42,832 bases of DNA from a virus: positions 1 to 42,832 of IMG/VR virus record IMGVR_UViG_3300030390_001047; one strand, written 5' to 3'. Shown here piece after piece: positions 2,611 to 15,826 of this stretch. The notes beneath the pieces were generated by a model, which was not told the DNA's origin, did no database searches, and worked only from the letters and a program-made list of their open reading frames with translations. A program made the position numbers and the translations under genes. Positions within the stretch are counted from its first letter, which is position 1. Every line of letters starts with the position of its first letter.

Positions 2611-5361
2611 CTATTTTTTATCTTCAGGCTTCTTGATATCGTACTTGTTTTTATTTTCACGTGCAATTTCAAGTTTAGTATTTGCTATATCTCTTTGAGC
2701 ATTTATTTTTTCTCTTTCAACAGTAAGTCTACTGCTTTCCATATTTTGTTTAGCAGCTACTTCATCACGTTTAAGATTCATCTGCTCACGATATTGTGTA
2801 GTTTCTTGAATATCCTTCAAAGCATCCTGATAATCAGATTGTTGATTTTGATTTATATCTACCTGAGAACCAAAACCTGCTGATCTTATTTCAGCTAAAG
2901 TAATTTTATTCTGTCTGTCTTTATCATTTTCTTGCATTTCAACTTGCAACTTCATTTGCTCTTCTTGAGATTTAGCTTGTATAGCTTGTTCTTGCATTTG
3001 TTGTTGTTGCTGCATTTCTTGTTGACGTTGCTGTTGTGTTCTTGTTTCTGAGTCTTTTAGTATATCAGTTACTTCAGCAATAGAATCTGCTTTAACTATG
3101 TTTCCTAATTCATATATACTAGCACCTGTAGTATTATTAGTAAGTGCCATTTGTTTTAAGTTTTCTAGTATAGCTCTATGATTTGTTTTAGTGGTAGCAA
3201 AAATATTAAAATCTCTTAATAATAAATCTGTACCATTGATTGTAAAATTAACTTTTTCTGCTTCACTAGATATATAAGATAATCTAATACTAGGATTATT
3301 ACTTTGGTAGTATTGAGCAAGGTCAGTTCTCATTTGATGTACTCTAGGCATCAGTTGATCTGAATGCTGTACAAAATACATCTCTGTTTGAGCGTATGAC
3401 TGTTGCATAGCTTGTACCACTCCTGTAGCAGTTTGAGCCGATACAGCGCCTCCTAGACGTTGTGGGTTAACTCCTATAGAATCAAAACATTGTTGTTTAA
3501 AGTAATTAGCTAATTGTATTCTAGACATTAATCTACTTGTCTGCTCCATGTTTAGAGTTTGATAGTGATTAAAGTTAGTTGCGTTTTCAGTGTTAGTAAT
3601 AGATGTATCTAAAGGTAGCATCTGAAAGTCTTTCATAGCTACATATGCTTTAGCATAATTATTCTTACCCCAGTCTTCACCCATTGAATGACGTGGTAAT
3701 GCATTTTGATCAAACATTATTACTGTACCTAACTCATCTATTAATATATCAGCAATTTGATTATTAACCATGTTATAACCTACTTGATATGCTTTCATTA
3801 AATCTACCAATGAAGTAGATCTAGTATTTCTGTCAGAAAATACTCTTCCCTCAACAGGAAGTTTACACCCATATAATGTATTGTTTCCTTTGAATTGAAA
3901 AGGTAATCTTCCAGGTTTAGTTCTATTAATGCCTACATATATAGGGTTTATATTATCACCCATTGTAGATCTCCACATAGCTGGTAAATTAGGTCCTATC
4001 TTTACTCCACCCCATACTTCATTAATCCATATCCATTCAATGTGTTCACCTTGAATTAAATTTTCTTTTGTTTTGTTTTTAAATAGTGATGTATCATATA
4101 CACCTTTCTCAGTTATTTTGAATGTTTCATCTACAACTTCTTGTATTACTTCACCATCCATTTCTATTTTAGTTAGATGACCTAACTTACGTTGTGTCTT
4201 CCAATAAATAGTTGATATTCTCATTAGGTTGCCTTCTTCTAATGGACCTGTGTCTTCACTTTGATCTAATATCTCACTAAGTATATCTCCTCCAGCTGCT
4301 GGATCATTCCAATAGTTACTTGTATATTGTCTATAAGCTAGTCCTGGCATTTGCGTATTCCATTCATGAGATCTAGTAGCATCATAATATGAACCATCAT
4401 TTTGATAACCATTTACCTGATACTGTGCAGATCTAGCTGGATATATTTTTTGTAATGATTTAAGTTGCTTCTCATCCATTAGATATCCATATCTATCTAC
4501 TACATCAGCAACTGTCATTAAGTCAATTTTACCAACATAATTTGAATCAGATATATATCTTTGATCTGGTGATTTTTGATAAAATGTTAATACAGGATTC
4601 CATAGTTCTACATCATAGTCATCCTCTAACATTCTGAAATGCCAGAATTCCCTATCTGCAATAAGCATATCTCTAAAGCCACGTTCTTCTAATTCCTGCA
4701 TATGAAATCTTTCTTCATCTACATTTAATTGATGAGTAGCCCATTCTTCAACCATACTCCTGTATGACTTACTAAAAAAGTCTTCTATTTCTGGTAATGA
4801 TTTTAAATTTTGTGGAGCAAGTTGTTCTTTAGCTTCTTGTGATGCAGGATCCATACCCATCTCAATCATTCTCATAACAAGATTTTTCTCTGCGTCTGCT
4901 AATAGAGCTTGTTCTACCTGCATTCTTTTATTCTCAAGCATCTCATTATAAGATGTATCATCTACTGCTCTGAATTGTACTTTGGAATATCTTTTGGCAA
5001 ACTCTCCTGTAAGTACATTAATAACATTTGGTACAATTGGATAAAACTTTAACTCTAATGCTGAATCATTTTCTTGAGTTAAAACATCCATCATTTCTTT
5101 ATAGTCATTGTCGGGTTCAACAATGTAATCAGTTTTGTCTATAATACCTTTAGCAAGTTTGTAATTTTTTAATAGTCTTCTGGCATTAACACGTAAAAAT
5201 TCAATTCCTTGAAGTTCAAGCCAATCTAAATTCCATGCTGCCCAATCATCAGTTTTTTTAGAATAAGGTAAGAATTGTGTTGGTTGGGTTAAGCTAGAAA
5301 AAGTTGGTCCACTTTCTGCTTTTGCACCATTCTTTAATTGCATTGCATTTAATACTCTCAT
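2611..5361 (-). CDS. Portal protein
   Basis: A 916-residue protein directly downstream of terminase (10-base gap). The N-terminal part has the pattern YKLAKGIIDKTDYI followed by LKFYPIVPNVINVLTGEFAKR, which I recognise from crAss-like and related Bacteroidota phage portals. The centre has tryptophan-rich segments (SNYWNDPAAGG, WIWINEVWGG). The last 170 residues are Gln/Glu-rich and predicted coiled coil (QQRQQEMQQQQQMQEQ). Portals form a dodecameric ring at one capsid vertex, through which DNA is packaged and to which the tail attaches. The size is typical of the long portals in this group. The 117-base gap between this gene and the scaffold-like gene (2494-2610) is very AT-rich and shows no clear motif. 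Confidence 0.85.
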   Translation of the reverse strand: MRVLNAMQLKNGAKAESGPTFSSLTQPTQFLPYSKKTDDWAAWNLDWLELQGIEFLRVNARRLLKNYKLAKGIIDKTDYIVEPDNDYKEMMDVLTQENDSALELKFYPIVPNVINVLTGEFAKRYSKVQFRAVDDTSYNEMLENKRMQVEQALLADAEKNLVMRMIEMGMDPASQEAKEQLAPQNLKSLPEIEDFFSKSYRSMVEEWATHQLNVDEERFHMQELEERGFRDMLIADREFWHFRMLEDDYDVELWNPVLTFYQKSPDQRYISDSNYVGKIDLMTVADVVDRYGYLMDEKQLKSLQKIYPARSAQYQVNGYQNDGSYYDATRSHEWNTQMPGLAYRQYTSNYWNDPAAGGDILSEILDQSEDTGPLEEGNLMRISTIYWKTQRKLGHLTKIEMDGEVIQEVVDETFKITEKGVYDTSLFKNKTKENLIQGEHIEWIWINEVWGGVKIGPNLPAMWRSTMGDNINPIYVGINRTKPGRLPFQFKGNNTLYGCKLPVEGRVFSDRNTRSTSLVDLMKAYQVGYNMVNNQIADILIDELGTVIMFDQNALPRHSMGEDWGKNNYAKAYVAMKDFQMLPLDTSITNTENATNFNHYQTLNMEQTSRLMSRIQLANYFKQQCFDSIGVNPQRLGGAVSAQTATGVVQAMQQSYAQTEMYFVQHSDQLMPRVHQMRTDLAQYYQSNNPSIRLSYISSEAEKVNFTINGTDLLLRDFNIFATTKTNHRAILENLKQMALTNNTTGASIYELGNIVKADSIAEVTDILKDSETRTQQQRQQEMQQQQQMQEQAIQAKSQEEQMKLQVEMQENDKDRQNKITLAEIRSAGFGSQVDINQNQQSDYQDALKDIQETTQYREQMNLKRDEVAAKQNMESSRLTVEREKINAQRDIANTKLEIARENKNKYDIKKPEDKK

Positions 5362-5371
5362 TCTTTTATTT

Positions 5372-7564
5372 TTATTTAATATTCTTAAAACCTGATCTTC
5401 TTATTTTTTTTGAAGAACTGTGTTTTCCACGTCCAATATTTTTAAACGGACTATACTTTAATTTATACAAATTTTCTGAGTTTACCAAAGAATTAGTCTC
5501 TGATTCACGTCTTTTAGAGTATCCTCTGTTAGATTGTTGTATTTTTACAAATGCAATCAAAGAACCAAATGCAACAAGTCTATCCACGTTCAATCCAGGA
5601 TAATAGGCTAACATCTCTTTTAAAAGCATTGGATCTGGTATTCTTTCTACACCCAATGTTTGATTCATAACGTTTCCATCATCATCTAAATCTTCATCAA
5701 TTACTTCTCTTATAAACTCTATTGCATATGATATTAAATGACTCTTAAATAGTGTTCCTGTATTCTTCCAGCCGTACTCTTGATAGACAGTTCTATTAGA
5801 TCCAAGATCTTTTAAAAATAATATTTGTTGTTTTGGAACTAAATATCTTTGCTTTTTTCTAGCAATCATATGTTGAATAAATAATGATATATTATTTTCA
5901 ACTAATGTCCAAGCATTATACCACTCTATTAATAACTCTAATCTTTCATGTGTCTTGTTTATATCATCAAATCTACCACACCAAGCTGCTACAATTTTAT
6001 CTTTTTCAATAAACTGTTCAGTATCTCCTGATTGAGTTGTTCTTGTTACTTCTACAGCATTTTTATAAATAAATATACTACATAATGAATCAGATGTAGT
6101 TGTTTTACCTTCTGATACTGGATCAATAGATCCATAGTAAGCTCCAAAATCAGGTCTTTTACTTGCAGGTCTTTCCCACACTACAATTGTTCCAGTTTTA
6201 TCTGTTTGTTTTTTGTCAACAGGAAATCTGGTTATTGGTAATTTATTTGTACGTTTAGCAATGATGCCTTCTTGTTCTCTTTCTAATTCTATTAATTCAT
6301 AAGGGTATTCTTTTTCATCAACTTTTTTAAGTTGTTTACTCAATACACCTTGTGGAAATATTGAGGCTTTTCTATATGCAAATGCTTCAGCTATATTTAA
6401 AGGTTTCTGAGATATCCTTAATTGAAACTGTTCACCGTTTAATTCATTTTTCCAACGCTCTCTTTCTTTATGAATTGCTTCTACTGCTTCTTCTATTTGA
6501 GAGTTACCATAACTATCTATATATGGTGGCATTGACCATTGTTCAGGTATAAACAAACCTGCTTTTCCAATTGTTCCGTCAGCATCTATTAGATCTGTTT
6601 CAACAGAAAATATATCATTTGCATCAGGGTTCATTATCATTTCCTTCAATGGTTTACATTGATCTAAATCACCCACTGATCCTGCAGCAATAAACATACC
6701 TGTAGTCATCATACCTGAAGACATTGCAGGACGTAAATATTCATATGTTTCTGACATCTTAGAAGCTATACCAGCTTCTTCATGAAAAAAGTATGTACAT
6801 GGTCCACCTACTCCAGTTGTAGCATTTTTCTCAAATGAACCACCTTGTATTTTAGATTTAAGACCTCTTGCAGTTTTTCTATTTCCAATTTTTACTTCTA
6901 TTTGTTGTTGCCAAAGTAATACCTTCTCAGGATTACTTGGTCTATACCAAGCAGTATGTTCATTTAAAAATATTTTGTATTCTTCTAAAAACTTCCATGA
7001 ACCTTTATCATTTATAAAGTCTTTTAATGATGCCCCTATCTTACATGTACTACCTTCTTCAAACCAATAAGTATTAATTAATTTAGCCATGTGAAAGTAA
7101 GAAGAAGCTATCTGACGTTTTTTAAGTATAGCTGAATGTTGATTATTTAGTTCAGCTAGCCATTCATATAATGCCATATGGTATTGTGCATCTCTTACTT
7201 TTGCAAATCCATATTTTTTTTCTTCTTTATCAAATATGGGTAAAAAATTTAGCCACATATAATAGTCTCTTGTTATATACCAAGTCTTGTGTTTATCTTT
7301 ATATATAACTCCATTACGGCATTTGATTTTTTGGTCATCCCAATATGTAGTAAAGTCTTTAGATCTAAAAGGACTACTACAATACAATCCTTCTTCATTA
7401 AATACTTTAGCTTGCTCATTAAATTTAAAAGCCATCTCTGTAAACCCGTATTTACCAGGCTCACTAAAGATGGATTCTAAAAACTCTCTAAATTTTAAGT
7501 CATTTTTAAATTCAGTAGTTGTCCAATTTCCATTGTCATATGTAGGTATAACCCTACTCATCAT
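5372..7564 (-). CDS. terL: Terminase large subunit (packaging ATPase and nuclease)
   Basis: A 730-residue protein. The ATPase half has a degenerate Walker A region (LKKRQIASSYFHMAKLI, about residues 147-163), a Walker B TYFFHEEAG (about 257-265) and a coupling motif MFIAAGSVGD (290-299). The C-terminal RNase H-like nuclease half begins with GAYYGSIDPVSEGKTTTSD (about 475-492), whose Asp is the expected first metal ligand; NVDRLVAFGSLIA near the end supplies the last. TerL pumps DNA through the portal and cuts concatemers. The start overlaps the end of the GroES-like gene by 11 bases. The lack of a classical GxGKT loop is usual in this phage group. No small terminase was recognised; the two unknown genes upstream are candidates. 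Confidence 0.9.
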   Translation of the reverse strand: MMSRVIPTYDNGNWTTTEFKNDLKFREFLESIFSEPGKYGFTEMAFKFNEQAKVFNEEGLYCSSPFRSKDFTTYWDDQKIKCRNGVIYKDKHKTWYITRDYYMWLNFLPIFDKEEKKYGFAKVRDAQYHMALYEWLAELNNQHSAILKKRQIASSYFHMAKLINTYWFEEGSTCKIGASLKDFINDKGSWKFLEEYKIFLNEHTAWYRPSNPEKVLLWQQQIEVKIGNRKTARGLKSKIQGGSFEKNATTGVGGPCTYFFHEEAGIASKMSETYEYLRPAMSSGMMTTGMFIAAGSVGDLDQCKPLKEMIMNPDANDIFSVETDLIDADGTIGKAGLFIPEQWSMPPYIDSYGNSQIEEAVEAIHKERERWKNELNGEQFQLRISQKPLNIAEAFAYRKASIFPQGVLSKQLKKVDEKEYPYELIELEREQEGIIAKRTNKLPITRFPVDKKQTDKTGTIVVWERPASKRPDFGAYYGSIDPVSEGKTTTSDSLCSIFIYKNAVEVTRTTQSGDTEQFIEKDKIVAAWCGRFDDINKTHERLELLIEWYNAWTLVENNISLFIQHMIARKKQRYLVPKQQILFLKDLGSNRTVYQEYGWKNTGTLFKSHLISYAIEFIREVIDEDLDDDGNVMNQTLGVERIPDPMLLKEMLAYYPGLNVDRLVAFGSLIAFVKIQQSNRGYSKRRESETNSLVNSENLYKLKYSPFKNIGRGKHSSSKKIRRSGFKNIK

Positions 7565-7832
7565 ATCTTACTATTGCAAAAACATCTCCTTCTTGAATTA
7601 ATAAGTGCTCTACATTCTGGTGCATCATAGGTGTTGGAATAGCATGTTCTGCGTATTGTACAACGTCTCCTACTTCTATCTCATAAACATCTTTGCCTTT
7701 ACCCACAACTGTGCCTTTAAATTCTTTTTTCTGAGCTATCTCAGGAATAATAAGTCCAGATGCTGTCTTAGTTTCAACTTTCCATTTTTTTAATAGTAAT
7801 TTTCTACCTACCGGTATAACTGTCATGCTCAT
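7554..7832 (-). CDS. GroES-like (Cpn10) co-chaperonin
   Basis: A 92-residue protein with the Cpn10 layout. The N-terminal strand is VIPVGRKLLLKKWK, followed by a mobile-loop region TKTASGLIIPE, then KGTVVGKGKDVYEIEVGDVVQY and a C-terminal strand LLIQEGDVFAIVRYDE. GroES-type proteins cap GroEL and help folding; phage versions such as T4 gp31 and RB49 CocO adapt host GroEL to fold the capsid protein. The mobile-loop sequence ASGLIIPE is close to the GroEL-binding loop (GGIVLP). It sits immediately before terminase in the head gene run and overlaps it by 11 bases, which fits a head-assembly chaperone. The role in capsid folding is inferred. Confidence 0.85.
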   Translation of the reverse strand: MSMTVIPVGRKLLLKKWKVETKTASGLIIPEIAQKKEFKGTVVGKGKDVYEIEVGDVVQYAEHAIPTPMMHQNVEHLLIQEGDVFAIVRYDE

Positions 7833-9514: not shown

Positions 9515-9833
9515 TTTTAGATATTTGTTCAATAATTTTTATTTCAGTTTCTTCATCCATATAAGCTTTCCAATAACCCTTAGGACATTCAGATGATAAT
9601 GATCTTAACTTAAATTCAAGACTACATCCACAATCTGAACAACATGGTTGTGATCCAGGTGCTAAACAGTCTTTACCATCTTTGTCAAGCAATGAACACT
9701 TAGCACATATTTGATATCTATCAGTAAAGACTGCTTCAACATGTTGTTTCTTAAATACTTTATTAGTTATACCTTCTGCAATTTTATTTATATTACCCAA
9801 TGCACCTAATAAATTTTTAATATTAATTGCCAT
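9504..9833 (-). CDS. Cysteine-rich zinc-binding protein (109 residues)
   Basis: The N-terminal half is a basic/helical segment (INIKNLLGALGNINKIAEGI). The centre has ICAKCSLLDKDGKDCLAPG followed by QPCCSDCGCSLEFKLRS and SSECPKGYW. That gives eight cysteines in CxxC-type pairs, enough for one or two zinc ribbons. It overlaps the HU-like gene by 11 bases. Such small zinc proteins occur beside virion or DNA-binding genes in Bacteroidota phages, but the function is unknown. Confidence 0.75.
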   Translation of the reverse strand: MAINIKNLLGALGNINKIAEGITNKVFKKQHVEAVFTDRYQICAKCSLLDKDGKDCLAPGSQPCCSDCGCSLEFKLRSLSSECPKGYWKAYMDEETEIKIIEQISKNEK

Positions 9834-10188
9834 GCTTTTGTTCTTTAAAATCTTTTTTAGATAGTATATTCTTTTCTATTTGTTCCATTGCCTTATCCAT
9901 TTGTACAATGTTTTTTTTAATATCCTCACTTTTAGCAAAACCATTATATGTTCTCTTAGCTATATTACCTAATAAACTTTTATTTTTCATTATAGCTTTA
10001 TTAAGTTTAGATTTTCTTATTACAAACGTACCTAGTCCATCTACTTGTATTCTAGGGTATTCTAAATTAGAAAGTTTATACCTAAGTTTATCATAATAAA
10101 AAGATATAAAATCATCTACAACAGATTGATGAACCCCCACTTCTTCAGCTATACCTTTTTTAAAAGCTTTATGTTTTTTGGGATTCAT
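9823..10188 (-). CDS. HU/IHF-like DNA-binding protein
   Basis: A 121-residue basic protein. The first helices KKHKAFKKGIAEEVGVHQSV and VVDDFISFYYDKLRYKLSNL are followed by a beta-arm segment YPRIQVDGLGTFVIRKSKL, the usual HU/IHF order (helix-helix-beta with a G-x-GTF turn). Proteins of this type are a hallmark of crAss-like phages, where they are called IHF subunits, and bend or compact DNA. The C-terminal extension (KKNILSKKDFKEQKHGN) is longer than in cellular HU. It overlaps its neighbours at both ends (20 and 11 bases), so it is co-transcribed with the late genes. Confidence 0.78.
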   Translation of the reverse strand: MNPKKHKAFKKGIAEEVGVHQSVVDDFISFYYDKLRYKLSNLEYPRIQVDGLGTFVIRKSKLNKAIMKNKSLLGNIAKRTYNGFAKSEDIKKNIVQMDKAMEQIEKNILSKKDFKEQKHGN

Positions 10189-10541: not shown

Positions 10542-11474
10542 TTACAAACTCATTATCATATCTACAAGATCAGGATGTGGATAACAATCCATTTTACCTT
10601 TTCTTACATTAGTATGCGTTAATAATCCTTCTACTTTTCCATAAAATGCATTTTCTTGAAATTCAAATCCTTTTGATGGTCCATATTTTTGTATAAACTG
10701 TTTTAAACCAAGTCTTACATCTACACCATCTCTTTCACCAACCCACTTGATCCATTTCTCAGTTTCTTTAATTTGTTTTTCACTATAGTTATGCCAATAT
10801 AATTTACCTTTGAATGCAGTAGGTAATTCACATACTTGATCAGCGTGACATTTGGATCCTACATATGTTTTAAAATCATTATCTAAATAACCCATATTAC
10901 ATATTTCAATTCCAACAGAAGTACGGTTCATTTTTCCAGAACCAGTTCTACCTAAATGATAACCTTGATTTCCTTCCGGAAATGCTTGAACCATTACCCC
11001 ATCATAGTCATCATTATTATTTCTATGATTTTGTCCACCCAATACAAACTCTGTAGCTATTCTACCTCTGTCATCTCTTCCCCATTGGTCTATACATCTG
11101 TATGGATTTGCATTACCTGCAGTATGATGTAAAAAAATGTATTTATTATCTGCAATACCATTTTTACTATGTTGAACATATTGTTCCTTTGCTAAATGGT
11201 ACTTATGGATTGTTTGATCAAAATTAGTTTTAAAGTATTGACTAGATAAATCATTATCTTCATCTATAGCATCCATATGTCTAGTTCCAAAAGAAAGCAT
11301 TAATGACCAAGTCTCTGAACCAACAATACCGTCAGCTTTCAAGCCATTGCTTAATTGAAATCTTATAACATGTTTTTCTGTTAATGGTCCAAAGTCTCCG
11401 TCTGGTGTTAATCCTAATTTTTGTTGAACCTTCTGTACGTCAGGATTCTTATCACCTAATTTTAATAGTCTCAT
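10542..11474 (-). CDS. Endolysin: N-acetylmuramoyl-L-alanine amidase with peptidoglycan-binding domain
   Basis: A 310-residue enzyme. Residues 1-60 are a PG_binding_1 domain (LKLGDKNPDVQKVQQKLGL, FGPLTEKHVIRFQ, GIVGSETWSLM). The amidase_2/PGRP domain follows: YIFLHHTAG with the first zinc His near 116-117, GYHLGRTGSG, RTSVGIEICNMG, and a C-terminal LTHTNVRKGKMDCYPHPDL, which gives the second zinc His and the catalytic Lys/Asp region. It cuts the amide bond between muramic acid and L-alanine. There is no signal peptide, so a holin or other membrane partner should release it; very small membrane proteins encoded at 12182-12265 and 12791-12979 in the same run are candidates. Confidence 0.9.
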   Translation of the reverse strand: MRLLKLGDKNPDVQKVQQKLGLTPDGDFGPLTEKHVIRFQLSNGLKADGIVGSETWSLMLSFGTRHMDAIDEDNDLSSQYFKTNFDQTIHKYHLAKEQYVQHSKNGIADNKYIFLHHTAGNANPYRCIDQWGRDDRGRIATEFVLGGQNHRNNNDDYDGVMVQAFPEGNQGYHLGRTGSGKMNRTSVGIEICNMGYLDNDFKTYVGSKCHADQVCELPTAFKGKLYWHNYSEKQIKETEKWIKWVGERDGVDVRLGLKQFIQKYGPSKGFEFQENAFYGKVEGLLTHTNVRKGKMDCYPHPDLVDMIMSL

Positions 11475-11475
11475 A

Positions 11476-11787
11476 TTATTCTATGTTTGCTGCTGCAGTT
11501 TCCATTGCCTCTTTAAAAGCTTTTGCTTCTTCAGAGTTTGGATCTACCTGTCCTTCTTCTTTTGATGCTGCATATGCTTGAGCTAAATACATTTGTGCTT
11601 GCATTCTTTCAGCTCTTGACTTTTCTATGTCAGCTAATAAAGCTTCATATTCTGCTTGAACAGTTAAGTGTGGGATATTATCTTTGTAGAAAGTTGTTAT
11701 TTCTTCTCTACGTTCAGATAATTGTTCTTTAGTAAGATTTTCTTGTGTTGGATCCGTATTAGGATTCAAGTTTACAGTTTTTGCCAT
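11476..11787 (-). CDS. Coiled-coil protein next to endolysin (103 residues)
   Basis: Almost entirely helical and charged: KEQLSERREEITTFYKD, YEALLADIEKSRAERMQAQM, then an alanine-rich end (EAKAFKEAMETAAANIE). No membrane segment and no cysteine. It ends one base before the amidase start. A TATATTTG -7-like element lies 30 bases upstream of its ATG on this strand, so it may begin a late sub-operon with the amidase. Function unknown; a virion or lysis accessory protein is possible. Confidence 0.7.
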   Translation of the reverse strand: MAKTVNLNPNTDPTQENLTKEQLSERREEITTFYKDNIPHLTVQAEYEALLADIEKSRAERMQAQMYLAQAYAASKEEGQVDPNSEEAKAFKEAMETAAANIE

Positions 11788-11856: not shown

Positions 11857-12189
11857 TTATAATTTATATAGTGAATACATTAAAGTAATTTCTTCACCCT
11901 CTTCCACTTTACGTAGAGTTCTTACCTTTTTACAAGTCTTGTCAGACTCATCTTCTATTAATTCACAATTAGGTTGTTCTGAATGATTTATAAATCCTCC
12001 TAGTGGAGTACGTATATAATCATGTTGAAATTCTGGATCATAAACATGCGTAATACCCATATCTATTTCTGCTGGAATATCATCTTTAGCAAAGATTCCT
12101 GCTCCATGTATACTTGAAGGTCCAATTGATAAATATTCAGGTAATGGTTTGTATTGTTTGGTTTTTTCCATAGTGTTATTATTAATCAT
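11857..12189 (-). CDS. Small SET-domain protein (putative protein lysine methyltransferase)
   Basis: A 110-residue protein that is essentially a bare SET domain. SSIHGAGIFAKDDIPA (about residues 25-40) is the SAM-binding GxG region. GGFINHSEQPNCEL (64-77) is the NHSxxPNC signature that forms the pseudoknot and active site. VEEGEEITLMY (95-105) carries the G-E-E-[IL]-T-x-x-Y motif with the catalytic Tyr. SET enzymes transfer methyl from SAM to lysine side chains. No pre-SET or post-SET cysteine cluster is present. It follows, in the same gene run, five tiny lysine-rich proteins, which are obvious potential substrates (inference). Initiation at 12171 (second Met) is possible. Confidence 0.82.
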   Translation of the reverse strand: MINNNTMEKTKQYKPLPEYLSIGPSSIHGAGIFAKDDIPAEIDMGITHVYDPEFQHDYIRTPLGGFINHSEQPNCELIEDESDKTCKKVRTLRKVEEGEEITLMYSLYKL

Positions 12190-12265
12190 CTATAGTTGGG
12201 GCATTCTTTATTTCATAGAAAAGCCATATCCATACTGCTATAAACATTATTATTGCTACTACCAT
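12182..12265 (-). CDS. 27-residue single-span membrane peptide
   Basis: ATG 12265 opens MVVAIIMFIAVWIWLFYEIK..., a hydrophobic helix of about 17 residues with a short acidic tail (PTIDD). Its start overlaps the stop of the 96-residue basic gene by 7 bases and its end overlaps the SET start by 8 bases, so it exactly fills the gap between them. Overlaps at both ends and the clean membrane helix argue that it is real. A holin-like or membrane-regulatory role is possible because the endolysin is nearby, but this is speculation. Confidence 0.6.
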   Translation of the reverse strand: MVVAIIMFIAVWIWLFYEIKNAPTIDD

Positions 12266-12549
12266 TTTACTTTATCTGCCCAGTAGGCTGCTGACATTTT
12301 ACCTTTGGCAATGTTTTTACCATGTCTAGCTTTAAAACTTTTACGTCTTGCTTTTTGTTTAGCTGATTCACCTGCTTTAGGTTTACCTGCTGTCTTTACG
12401 CCTTGTTGTCCAAACCGTATTGTCTTTACTTTATCTCCTACTTTTGCTACAACTACATGAGATTTTTTTGGATGACTGGGTGTACGCTTAGGTTTATTAT
12501 ACCCAGATACACCTGCTTTTGTTAATCTACCATCTTTTTTTGCTGCCAT
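12259..12549 (-). CDS. Small lysine-rich basic protein (96 residues)
   Basis: Very basic: it begins MAAKKDGRLTKAGVSGYNKP and includes KRTPSHPKKSHVVVAKVGDK. A conserved-looking second half runs RFGQQGVKTAGKP, SAKQKARRKSFKARHGK and AAYWADKVKW. From memory, the second half resembles a small family found in large DNA viruses and marine phages (FGQ..G, R..YLARH, YWA....W); this is unverified. It lacks membrane segments. Its ATG shares one base with the stop of the preceding 80-residue gene (TAATG). It may bind nucleic acid. Confidence 0.75.
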   Translation of the reverse strand: MAAKKDGRLTKAGVSGYNKPKRTPSHPKKSHVVVAKVGDKVKTIRFGQQGVKTAGKPKAGESAKQKARRKSFKARHGKNIAKGKMSAAYWADKVKW

Positions 12550-12791
12550 TATCTTTTCTTTCCTTTGTGCAATCCATGAGATGCGTGTTGTTTACCTTTT
12601 TTTGTAGCAGCTCTTTTCTTTTTATTTGCTGCAGCTAATTTAGCTTTACCCTTTTTAGTACTTTTTAATTTACTAATTGTTTTAGATGGAGCATAGACTT
12701 CACCAGTAACAGAACTTTTCTTTCCGCTTGGTGTTCTCCATTTTTGCTTTGTCCATTTAGTAAGACTTTTTTGTTGTTTAGTTTTTGCCAT
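12549..12791 (-). CDS. DUF5872-like small lysine-rich protein (80 residues)
   Basis: About a third of the residues are Lys or Arg. The core LTKWTKQKWRTPSGKKSS, TGEVYAPSKTISKLKS and KKRAATKKGKQHASHG matches what I remember as DUF5872, a small family in giant DNA viruses and marine phages. The C-terminal half (KLAAANKKKRAATKKGK) looks like a histone H1 tail. It starts with a TAATG junction to the upstream lipoprotein gene. DNA or RNA condensation is a reasonable guess; no catalytic motif is seen. Confidence 0.75.
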   Translation of the reverse strand: MAKTKQQKSLTKWTKQKWRTPSGKKSSVTGEVYAPSKTISKLKSTKKGKAKLAAANKKKRAATKKGKQHASHGLHKGKKR

Positions 12792-12979
12792 TATCTTTTA
12801 ACAAATATATGTATTGAATAAATAATTAACCCTGATAAAAGCAATGTCATTAATGGATTTTTTTCACTACTCACTACTTCCTTTTTTGGCTCATCCTTTT
12901 TCTTTGCAGAAAGTTTTGATGAACCACAAGCAAATAATAGTAAAAACCATAACAATATCAAAATTATTTTTTTACTCAT
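12791..12979 (-). CDS. Lipoprotein with C-terminal membrane helix (u-spanin-like, 62 residues)
   Basis: MSKKIILILLWFLLLFACGSS is a classical lipoprotein signal peptide with the lipobox LFAC (Cys18), followed by Bacteroidota-style GSS. A lysine-rich hydrophilic linker (SAKKKDEPKKEVVSS) precedes a second hydrophobic segment (LMTLLLSGLIIYSIHIFVKR) with a basic end. Outer-membrane lipid anchor plus inner-membrane helix is the layout of unimolecular spanins such as T1 gp11, which fuse the two membranes at lysis. The linker, about 26 residues, is much shorter than in T1, so full span is doubtful. One-base TAATG junctions join it to both neighbours. Confidence 0.65.
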   Translation of the reverse strand: MSKKIILILLWFLLLFACGSSKLSAKKKDEPKKEVVSSEKNPLMTLLLSGLIIYSIHIFVKR

Positions 12980-13095
12980 TATCTTGTCTTTTTACGTACA
13001 CAATTGTTTACCATTTTATTTCCCTTTTTTTTCATACCCTTTTTAGTATAACCAGCCCAACAAGCTGTTTTCTTTTTAGATCTTTTAAGAGCCAT
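12979..13095 (-). CDS. 38-residue lysine/arginine-rich peptide
   Basis: Starts MALKRSKKKTACWAGYTKKG and ends NKMVNNCVRKKTR. Nearly half of the residues are Lys or Arg, with two cysteines that could bind metal or form a disulfide. Start and stop are tied to the neighbours by TAATG one-base overlaps, which supports it as a real gene although it is very short. It is part of the run of basic micro-proteins. Confidence 0.65.
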   Translation of the reverse strand: MALKRSKKKTACWAGYTKKGMKKKGNKMVNNCVRKKTR

Positions 13096-13289
13096 TATTT
13101 TTTTGTTTTATATCCGCCTCCGTTTGCTTTGTATCTTTTAGCTAACATCTGAGCTTTACGAGCAGACCATTGTCCAGCTCCTCCGCCTTTACTTCCTGCC
13201 TTGATTGAATTAAATAATCTTTTACGCATTCCAGGCTTAGTATAGTTACCAGAACTATTTACTGTACTTTTCTTTTTCTTTGCTGGCAT
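13095..13289 (-). CDS. 64-residue basic Gly/Lys-rich protein
   Basis: Begins MPAKKKKSTVNSSGNYTKPG, then MRKRLFNSIKAGSKGGGAG and QWSARKAQMLAKRYKANGGG. I recall similar sequences in marine phages and in uncultured viral contigs, but no function. The helix SARKAQMLAKRYKA could contact nucleic acid. One-base TAATG junctions occur at both ends. Confidence 0.7.
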   Translation of the reverse strand: MPAKKKKSTVNSSGNYTKPGMRKRLFNSIKAGSKGGGAGQWSARKAQMLAKRYKANGGGYKTKK

Positions 13290-13456
13290 TATTTCTTTGC
13301 TTTAAGTTTAGCTGTTTTAGATAAGTCTTTAAAATGAACTAAAAGTTTACTAGTCTTGGTATGTGTCTTACCAGTGTGTAATTTACCATTAGACATTTTG
13401 TGACTAACACCTTTCCATTCAGTTCCGTTTTTTAAATAATGTTTTACGCCTTTCAT
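13289..13456 (-). CDS. 55-residue basic protein
   Basis: ATG 13456 opens MKGVKHYLKNGTEWKGVSHK, which continues MSNGKLHTGKTHTKTSKLLV and ends DLSKTAKLKAKK. The first part looks like a small beta-sheet. It is lysine-rich like its neighbours and ends with a one-base overlap on the next ATG. Six bases separate it from the 108-residue gene before it. Confidence 0.65.
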   Translation of the reverse strand: MKGVKHYLKNGTEWKGVSHKMSNGKLHTGKTHTKTSKLLVHFKDLSKTAKLKAKK

Positions 13457-13462
13457 TTTTTT

Positions 13463-13789
13463 TTAATTATCGTTATTAATTGTATCTGGATACGTTTCGT
13501 TCATTATACTTTTTATCTTAGCACATCTTTCATACGCTTCAACATCTACATAATGAAATATCATATTCTCTAATTGTTCTTTTGTTGGCCCATCATCTGG
13601 GTCGTATGCCATTACGGCCTCATGACCAATATCAAACTTTGCTGCTATTAGTTCTGTGAATGTAACCTGTCCCGTTAATACTAAATATGAATTATCAAAA
13701 GCAGTGTCTAATAATATCTGATCTAACTGCATTTGTTCCATCTCAGTTAAACCATTTTCTTTATCAGATTCACCATCCCAATGTGACAT
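13463..13789 (-). CDS. Acidic protein, first gene of the minus block (108 residues)
   Basis: Strongly acidic, in contrast with the basic genes that follow: it starts MSHWDGESDKENGLTEMEQM and carries MAYDPDDGPTKEQLENM and YVDVEAYERCAKIKSIM. The C-terminal part, with its spaced Tyr/Glu helix, resembles UVR-like two-helix domains. It is the promoter-proximal gene of the leftward block, so it is probably made early in that transcript. Function unknown. Confidence 0.65.
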   Translation of the reverse strand: MSHWDGESDKENGLTEMEQMQLDQILLDTAFDNSYLVLTGQVTFTELIAAKFDIGHEAVMAYDPDDGPTKEQLENMIFHYVDVEAYERCAKIKSIMNETYPDTINNDN

Positions 13790-14030
13790 ATTACTTATTT
13801 TTTGATTAGTTACAATCCATCTATAAGAACAATATACTAAATTTTAAATTTGCAAAAAAATAAATTTGAACTAACATGCCCCCTAACTGATTAAAAAAAA
13901 TTCAACCCCCCACCCAAAAGTTATGTATTTGGCGTGCTTGAGATGTTCTACCAATTTGCTCCCCAACTAAATTCCGTGGTTGGGTTACCCCCCGTAATAG
14001 TTCCACAAAAATTAATTTAATTCTAATATT
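13790..14030. promoter_or_regulatory. Divergent intergenic region between the two transcription blocks
   Basis: These 241 bases separate leftward and rightward genes, so promoters for both blocks should lie here. Two perfect TAAATTTG boxes (13845-13852, 13861-13868) match the -7 consensus TAnnTTTG on the plus strand, though no -33 TTG lies at the usual distance. The rest holds C-tracts (CCCCC near 13880, CCCCCC and CCC near 13908-13917, CCCC at 13961, CCCCCC near 13988), which are exceptional in this AT-rich DNA. A CCCAAC/GTTGGG hairpin lies at 13962-13984. Confidence 0.5.
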
Positions 14031-15326: not shown

Positions 15327-15668
15327 ATGAACAATCCAATAGGACATTTAAGTCACAAGGAATTTGATGACTTAACAAATACAGAAAGAGTACAAGTAAT
15401 TGCAGCATATAATGACTGCAATAGATACCCAGACATGAGAACCGATCCAGGTACTACTAAACTAGAACATTTTTGGAACTCATGGAACTATGATGGTGAA
15501 TCAATGCCTAATAACGCTTCAGAATTAAAAGTGCTTAGATCAGCAGCAGGTTATTACATAGGTCGTACCGAAGAAGGTATGCCTTATAGCCGTGAATCAA
15601 CTTACTTCAGTACATCTGAAGAAGCAGAAGAATTATTAAATCCAAACCCTAATATTAAAAAGTTATGA
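15327..15668 (+). CDS. Unknown 113-residue protein
   Basis: Begins MNNPIGHLSHKEFDDLTNTE. It contains an aromatic-rich middle (LEHFWNSWNYDGESMPNNAS) and YYIGRTEEGMPYSRESTYFS, which looks like a short beta-hairpin domain. It ends acidic then basic (EEAEELLNPNPNIKKL). Its stop overlaps the lipoprotein start by 4 bases (ATGA), so the two are probably translationally coupled. No family recognised. Confidence 0.7.
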   Translation: MNNPIGHLSHKEFDDLTNTERVQVIAAYNDCNRYPDMRTDPGTTKLEHFWNSWNYDGESMPNNASELKVLRSAAGYYIGRTEEGMPYSRESTYFSTSEEAEELLNPNPNIKKL

Positions 15669-15826
15669 AAAAGAAATTCCTTTACATTATGCTGTTCCTC
15701 TTCGTTGGAGGACCAGTACTTCAATCTTGTGGATCCAGTCGTGGATGCAAGAAGATGAGAAAATACAGAACTAATGCTTCTTGTGAACCAACAAAGAAGT
15801 TAACATATCCAAGAACTAAATACTAA
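15665..15826 (+). CDS. Small phage lipoprotein (53 residues)
   Basis: MKKKFLYIMLFLFVGGPVLQ is a signal peptide. The lipobox VLQSC puts the lipid on Cys22, followed by GSSRG. The mature part is only about 32 residues, rich in Lys/Arg and Cys (CKKMRKYRTNASC). Phage lipoproteins in early regions often block superinfection at the envelope; here that is a guess. It overlaps the previous gene by 4 bases. Confidence 0.6.
   Translation: MKKKFLYIMLFLFVGGPVLQSCGSSRGCKKMRKYRTNASCEPTKKLTYPRTKY

Follow-up and report, generated by a model that had tools for sequence, protein, structure and literature searches.

Several described SET proteins resemble the one considered here. Paramecium bursaria chlorella virus 1 encodes vSET (A612L), named as a histone H3-Lys27 methyltransferase, which likewise consists of one SET domain, is similar in length and has its motifs in the same order. 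Its structure matches the model of the phage protein with a Z of 11.8 and an rmsd of 2.3 Å over 90 residues; 20% of the structurally aligned residues are identical, and phmmer gives an E of 0.55. However, the target of vSET is Lys27 of histone H3, whereas the bacterial hosts of the phage studied here lack eukaryotic histones. Go1-SET of Methanosarcina mazei is likewise a prokaryotic SET enzyme, a likeness taken from its published description and not from sequence, and methylates MC1-alpha in vitro (PMC3980110); this substrate is DNA-associated, of the kind that the original prediction proposed for the phage enzyme. Nearer in sequence, the marine tailed phages Kolga EXVC016S, P-RSM6 and P-SSM7 carry members of the same family, PHROG 28741, with 40-47% identity over 89-100% of the length, which are annotated as hypothetical proteins and lie in other gene settings. 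Entries named 'SET domain containing protein' are also found for uncultured Caudovirales phages in BFVD. Assemblies of marine Flavobacteriaceae and Porticoccaceae encode short SET proteins of about 97-125 aa with roughly 40-52% identity and the same invariant residues, but in neighbourhoods of chromosomal type. In the literature searched, ORF62 of Stenotrophomonas phage Ps15 receives a passing mention as a phage SET enzyme (PMC9025141), but neither a functional study of phage SET enzymes nor a paper pairing a SET domain with a cyanophage was found. In the crAss001 atlas, 'SET domain' refers to an immunoglobulin domain of the 'C2-set' type and not to a SET enzyme.

The window analysed here, a stretch of 42,832 bases with a G+C content of 32%, corresponds to one IMG/VR virus record (IMGVR_UViG_3300030390_001047). 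Homology suggests that it is part of the genome of a marine crAss-like phage, with a terminase and a portal protein of the type that defines Crassvirales (PHROG 6681 and 6547). The terminase shows 26-27% identity to those of gut crAss-like and Flavobacterium phages, and a relative of 110 kb keeps the same gene order as the window. Genes start divergently near 13,800-14,030, with mostly replication genes on the plus strand and a late-type run on the minus strand. This run proceeds from an acidic protein (A108) through the basic genes, the SET gene and the gene that follows it (C103) to an endolysin, and continues past the endolysin to a GroES-like gene, the terminase and the portal, as listed here by ascending coordinate:

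2611..5361, minus strand, portal protein, crAss-like (PHROG 6547, E 1.4e-89)
5372..7564, minus strand, large terminase, crAss-like (PHROG 6681, E 5.3e-61)
10542..11474, minus strand, endolysin with peptidoglycan-binding and amidase domains (Pfam, 2.5e-12 and 1.1e-9)
11476..11787, minus strand, C103, gene directly downstream of SET, kept in relatives with and without SET
11857..12189, minus strand, SET-domain protein of 110 aa, single domain (Pfam, PHROG, AlphaFold2, invariant residues)
12259..12549, minus strand, B96, basic protein of 96 aa (PHROG 7595, E 5e-43; 58 phage records)
12549..12791, minus strand, B80, basic protein of 80 aa containing KKKRAATKKGK (PHROG 14910, E 3.6e-15)
12791..12979, minus strand, lipoprotein-like ORF of 62 aa within the basic run (lipobox-like LLLFACGSS by eye; weak PHROG matches only)
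12979..13095, minus strand, B38, basic peptide of 38 aa (PHROG 9737, 1.9e-7; PHROG 727, 1.1e-6; others)
13095..13289, minus strand, B64, basic protein of 64 aa (PHROG 17747, E 8.6e-34)
13289..13456, minus strand, B55, basic ORF of 55 aa with relatives in other marine phages
13463..13789, minus strand, A108, acidic protein whose gene opens the late run and is kept even where SET and the basic genes are absent

Other genes of the window can be mentioned in passing. A GroES-type co-chaperonin gene (7554-7832; Cpn10, 4.1e-12) lies directly upstream of the terminase gene, and a protein of 121 aa (9823-10188), which the relatives of the clade keep, has an HU/IHF-type DNA-binding look by eye, with no convincing match in Pfam. 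A second small lipoprotein-like ORF (15665-15826) shows by eye a lipobox-like ...QSCGSS, and it and the ORF at 12791-12979, which belongs to the late run and is close to the endolysin, are possibly spanin components.

The SET ORF begins with an ATG and contains, as originally reported, the motifs HGAGIF, NHSEQPNC and GEEITLMY. Profile search and structure prediction both bear out its identity. The Pfam SET profile PF00856 is matched at E 7.4e-10 (39.6 bits against a cut-off of 22.4) over profile positions 63-104 of 105, and PHROG 28741 at E 1.7e-24. AlphaFold2, fed with an alignment of 40 rows, returns a SET fold (pLDDT 87.9, pTM 0.76) that matches SET structures in Foldseek at E 1.4e-6 and aligns with the SET domains of MLL and vSET (3kma) at Z of 11.9-11.8. 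In sequence searches of the PDB the best matches are SUV4-20 and MLL, with vSET among the weaker matches to further SET domains. A Legionella SET effector family, the only NCBIfam match, fell far below its cut-off and was discarded. With 110 aa and one domain, the protein has the build of vSET-type enzymes, a single SET domain of ~120 aa devoid of pre-SET and post-SET segments. The N-terminal GxG and NH...N motifs of the SAM site are in place, as is the catalytic tyrosine; G29, G31, N68, H69, N74, E100 and Y105 are identical in all of the 40 phage and bacterial sequences compared, the catalytic Tyr being lost in none of them. The dN/dS of the gene against its relatives is about 0.14, indicating purifying selection, and those of the basic genes are about 0.03-0.3; therefore, all of these are real genes rather than chance ORFs. 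As every relative examined retains the SAM site together with the catalytic tyrosine, a minimal single-domain protein-lysine methyltransferase is the natural reading of what this fold and these residues predict. Such an enzyme, expressed late in infection to judge from the position of its gene, would be expected to bind S-adenosylmethionine through its N-terminal GxG and NH...N loops and would use Tyr105 for methyl transfer to a lysine of a protein.

The five basic proteins of 96, 80, 38, 64 and 55 aa do lie upstream of SET on the same strand, and the KKKRAATKKGK tail belongs to the one of 80 aa. The original description of these genes as directly upstream holds in that the run is adjacent, but it passed over the 62-aa ORF inside the run and the gap of 69 nt between the B96 and SET genes. 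In any case, B96, B80, B64 and B55 are a widespread module of marine phages in its own right, separate from SET. B64 and B96 are present in isolated roseophages, pelagiphages and HMO-2011, and B96 also in cyanophages, and none of the 16 isolated-phage records of B64 is found among the phage matches of SET. Of 75 newly retrieved B64 loci, 68 have B80 no more than 3 kb away from B64 and 43 have B96 at such a distance, while a SET, and a remote one, occurs in a single case.

On their own account, B96 and B64 reach 74-89% identity in cyanobacterial and alphaproteobacterial phages that are otherwise unrelated. B38 matches a segment of longer profiles from about ten larger phage protein families, and its motif WxGYxKKGxKKKGxKxVxNCV recurs inside larger phage proteins like a detachable domain. 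The Pfam families DUF6321, DUF5754 and DUF5872, considered for the basic proteins, all stayed below their cut-offs.

The conservation of the linkage was examined in 80 close relatives of the window's terminase (83-95% identity), among which 42 viral contigs contain the complete interval from A108 to C103. The basic genes occupy this interval in 38 of them, and the other four hold neither basic genes nor SET. The proposal that the neighbours of SET hint at its substrate fares poorly in this comparison, as SET accompanies the basic genes in only three of these 38 intervals and the remaining 35 (of the 42) have the basic genes and no SET. When 40 SET-less records were searched over their whole length, one more SET appeared, on the contig of locus L104, adjoining a DNA polymerase gene and away from the basic genes; many of the contigs are fragments, so that a SET elsewhere in the genome can escape detection, although contigs as long as 116 and 115 kb also have the basic genes and lack SET. 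Similarly, none of 80 B96 loci contains a SET.

The linkage also breaks from the other side. The window's own subclade (L002 and L005-L010) keeps SET and the basic genes together, but the close relative L004 still has SET in the late operon with no basic gene remaining. The late operons of genomes G009 and G013 match that of the window in nearly every gene, but in these two genomes SET lies tens of kilobases off, adjoining a giant gene for which searches suggested no name, and both lack the B64 and B96 families; G009 has other small basic proteins at about 16 kb from SET, and G013 a few scattered ones. A third genome, G017 (90 kb), whose first bases recur near its end and which is therefore probably close to complete, has almost no small basic proteins. 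In the clade as a whole, 43 of the 50 informative loci besides the window have their SET outside the window's type of late operon. Nor is a footprint of the enzyme evident in the basic proteins. The window's B96 shares 96-97% identity with the copies of the SET-less L101 and L103 and 76% with those of the SET-bearing L006 and L009, and SET-less relatives conserve the lysines of these proteins as well as SET-bearing ones do. No position of B96, B80, B64 or B55 has a lysine that depends visibly on SET, the excess reaching at most 0.20 as a fraction; for the three larger families, 4-5 SET-bearing were compared with 22-25 SET-less sequences, and the power of the comparison is modest because lysine is conserved throughout these proteins. 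As the linkage fails in both directions, the neighbourhood is not supported as a guide to the substrate, and the best reading is a local accident in which an accessory gene landed near an unrelated module. We regard this accidental linkage, taken jointly with the identity of the enzyme, as probable.

The SET gene has its own history. Together with the window's copy, 53 SET sequences form one clade with a support of 100/100. Besides the window, it comprises 35 cases in the order terminase-SET-portal, where SET overlaps or abuts the 3′ end of the terminase gene, and seven in a late operon with endolysin. Four copies follow a giant gene of 1,800 aa, two a 2OG/minor-coat-like gene and one a tail-region gene, another lies in a run of nucleotide-metabolism genes (L030/G017), and two are cut. 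SET thus changes place within genomes across the clade, mostly in packaging or late-type runs. It was probably gained once by the ancestor of this phage clade, and would since have moved among at least five gene settings, most of them in late runs of packaging and virion genes. On the other hand, the SETs of two other crAss-like phages, L462 (G026:C1:4755-5066) and L445, branch separately and adjoin a DNA polymerase gene, which suggests repeated uptake, and crAss-like phages seem to have acquired SET more than once. The family spans crAss-like phages, T4-like cyanophages and a pelagiphage, and the SET alignment, run against IMG/VR, recovered at least 593 confirmed relatives. SET is consequently a common accessory gene in marine tailed phages and not a rare one, and the initial impression that tailed phages seldom carry SET domains was wrong for marine phages. 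A more remote SET-like segment, with 30% identity, is embedded in a larger protein with a tail-fibre-like annotation in Rhodoferax phage P26218 (L463:2422-3297), with a gp10-like DNA stabilisation protein nearby.

Bacterial and archaeal assemblies yielded 54 SET loci, mostly from marine Flavobacteriaceae and Porticoccaceae. Among the others, several resemble phage contigs in bins, and one of these (L361) groups very near Pelagibacter phage Kolga. In three bacterial assemblies (L345:3679-5749, L343 and L359) SET sits inside an arginine operon, in the order argC-SET-proC with gaps of a few bases, and in L370:3087-5285 and related Porticoccaceae loci a short SET lies directly 3′ of fabA-fabB. A further cellular neighbourhood combines an SBF-family transporter and a GDSL esterase. 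These neighbourhoods are fixed within lineages and differ between them, so that no common substrate emerges.

What the phage enzyme may act on can be weighed from these distributions. The candidate put forward tentatively, at somewhat less than even chances and on the basis of gene position, is a late phage protein belonging to the virion or the packaging machinery, since the commonest placement of SET, at the terminase and before the portal, makes such a protein the first guess. The narrower proposal, in which the phage methyltransferase acts during assembly on a protein of the virion or the packaging motor, is more doubtful still, and our searches found no report of lysine methylation of such a protein by a phage enzyme. 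The copies of L030/G017, among nucleotide-metabolism genes, and of L462 and L445, beside DNA polymerase, speak against a target of this kind. A host protein, be it ribosomal, nucleoid or metabolic, methylated during infection for takeover or protection, comes next and is possible, if a little less so than a virion or packaging target; it would suit a family spread over phages that have little else in common and the apparently repeated uptake by crAss-like phages. The homologues in marine Flavobacteriaceae assemblies, 42-46% identical, mean that a cellular target may exist, and their location beside unrelated metabolic genes fits a host target equally well. However, most SETs of the phage clade lie directly within packaging or virion gene runs, and the cellular neighbourhoods, variable by lineage, indicate no candidate.

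The five basic neighbours come as a distant third in this ranking. Methylation of small proteins that pack or coat the phage DNA would tune its condensation in the capsid, and the adjacent, same-strand and lysine-rich genes, kept together with SET in the window's subclade, recommend the idea, as does the precedent of Go1-SET acting on MC1-alpha (PMC3980110). It is nevertheless improbable, given that the basic genes persist without SET in close relatives and isolated phages, that SET persists without B64 and B96 in L004, G009, G013, G017 and the terminase-SET-portal clade, that no lysine of the basic proteins is retained exclusively alongside SET, and that B96 is closer to the window's copy in SET-less than in SET-bearing relatives. 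A last possibility is that the domain, very small and with no post-SET segment, has kept the fold for binding and has no methyltransferase activity. This is the least likely of all the readings, as the SAM-site and catalytic residues are invariant in phage and cellular members and vSET, similar in size, is named in the PDB as an active histone methyltransferase.

The SET protein of the window is a new member of an existing enzyme family, which with its catalytic motifs intact is widespread in marine phages and marine Flavobacteriaceae. An argument from gene neighbourhood that seems convincing in one genome dissolves across forty. If the target is indeed a virion or packaging protein, the terminase-SET-portal order found in most of the clade would reflect the co-production of the enzyme with its target.
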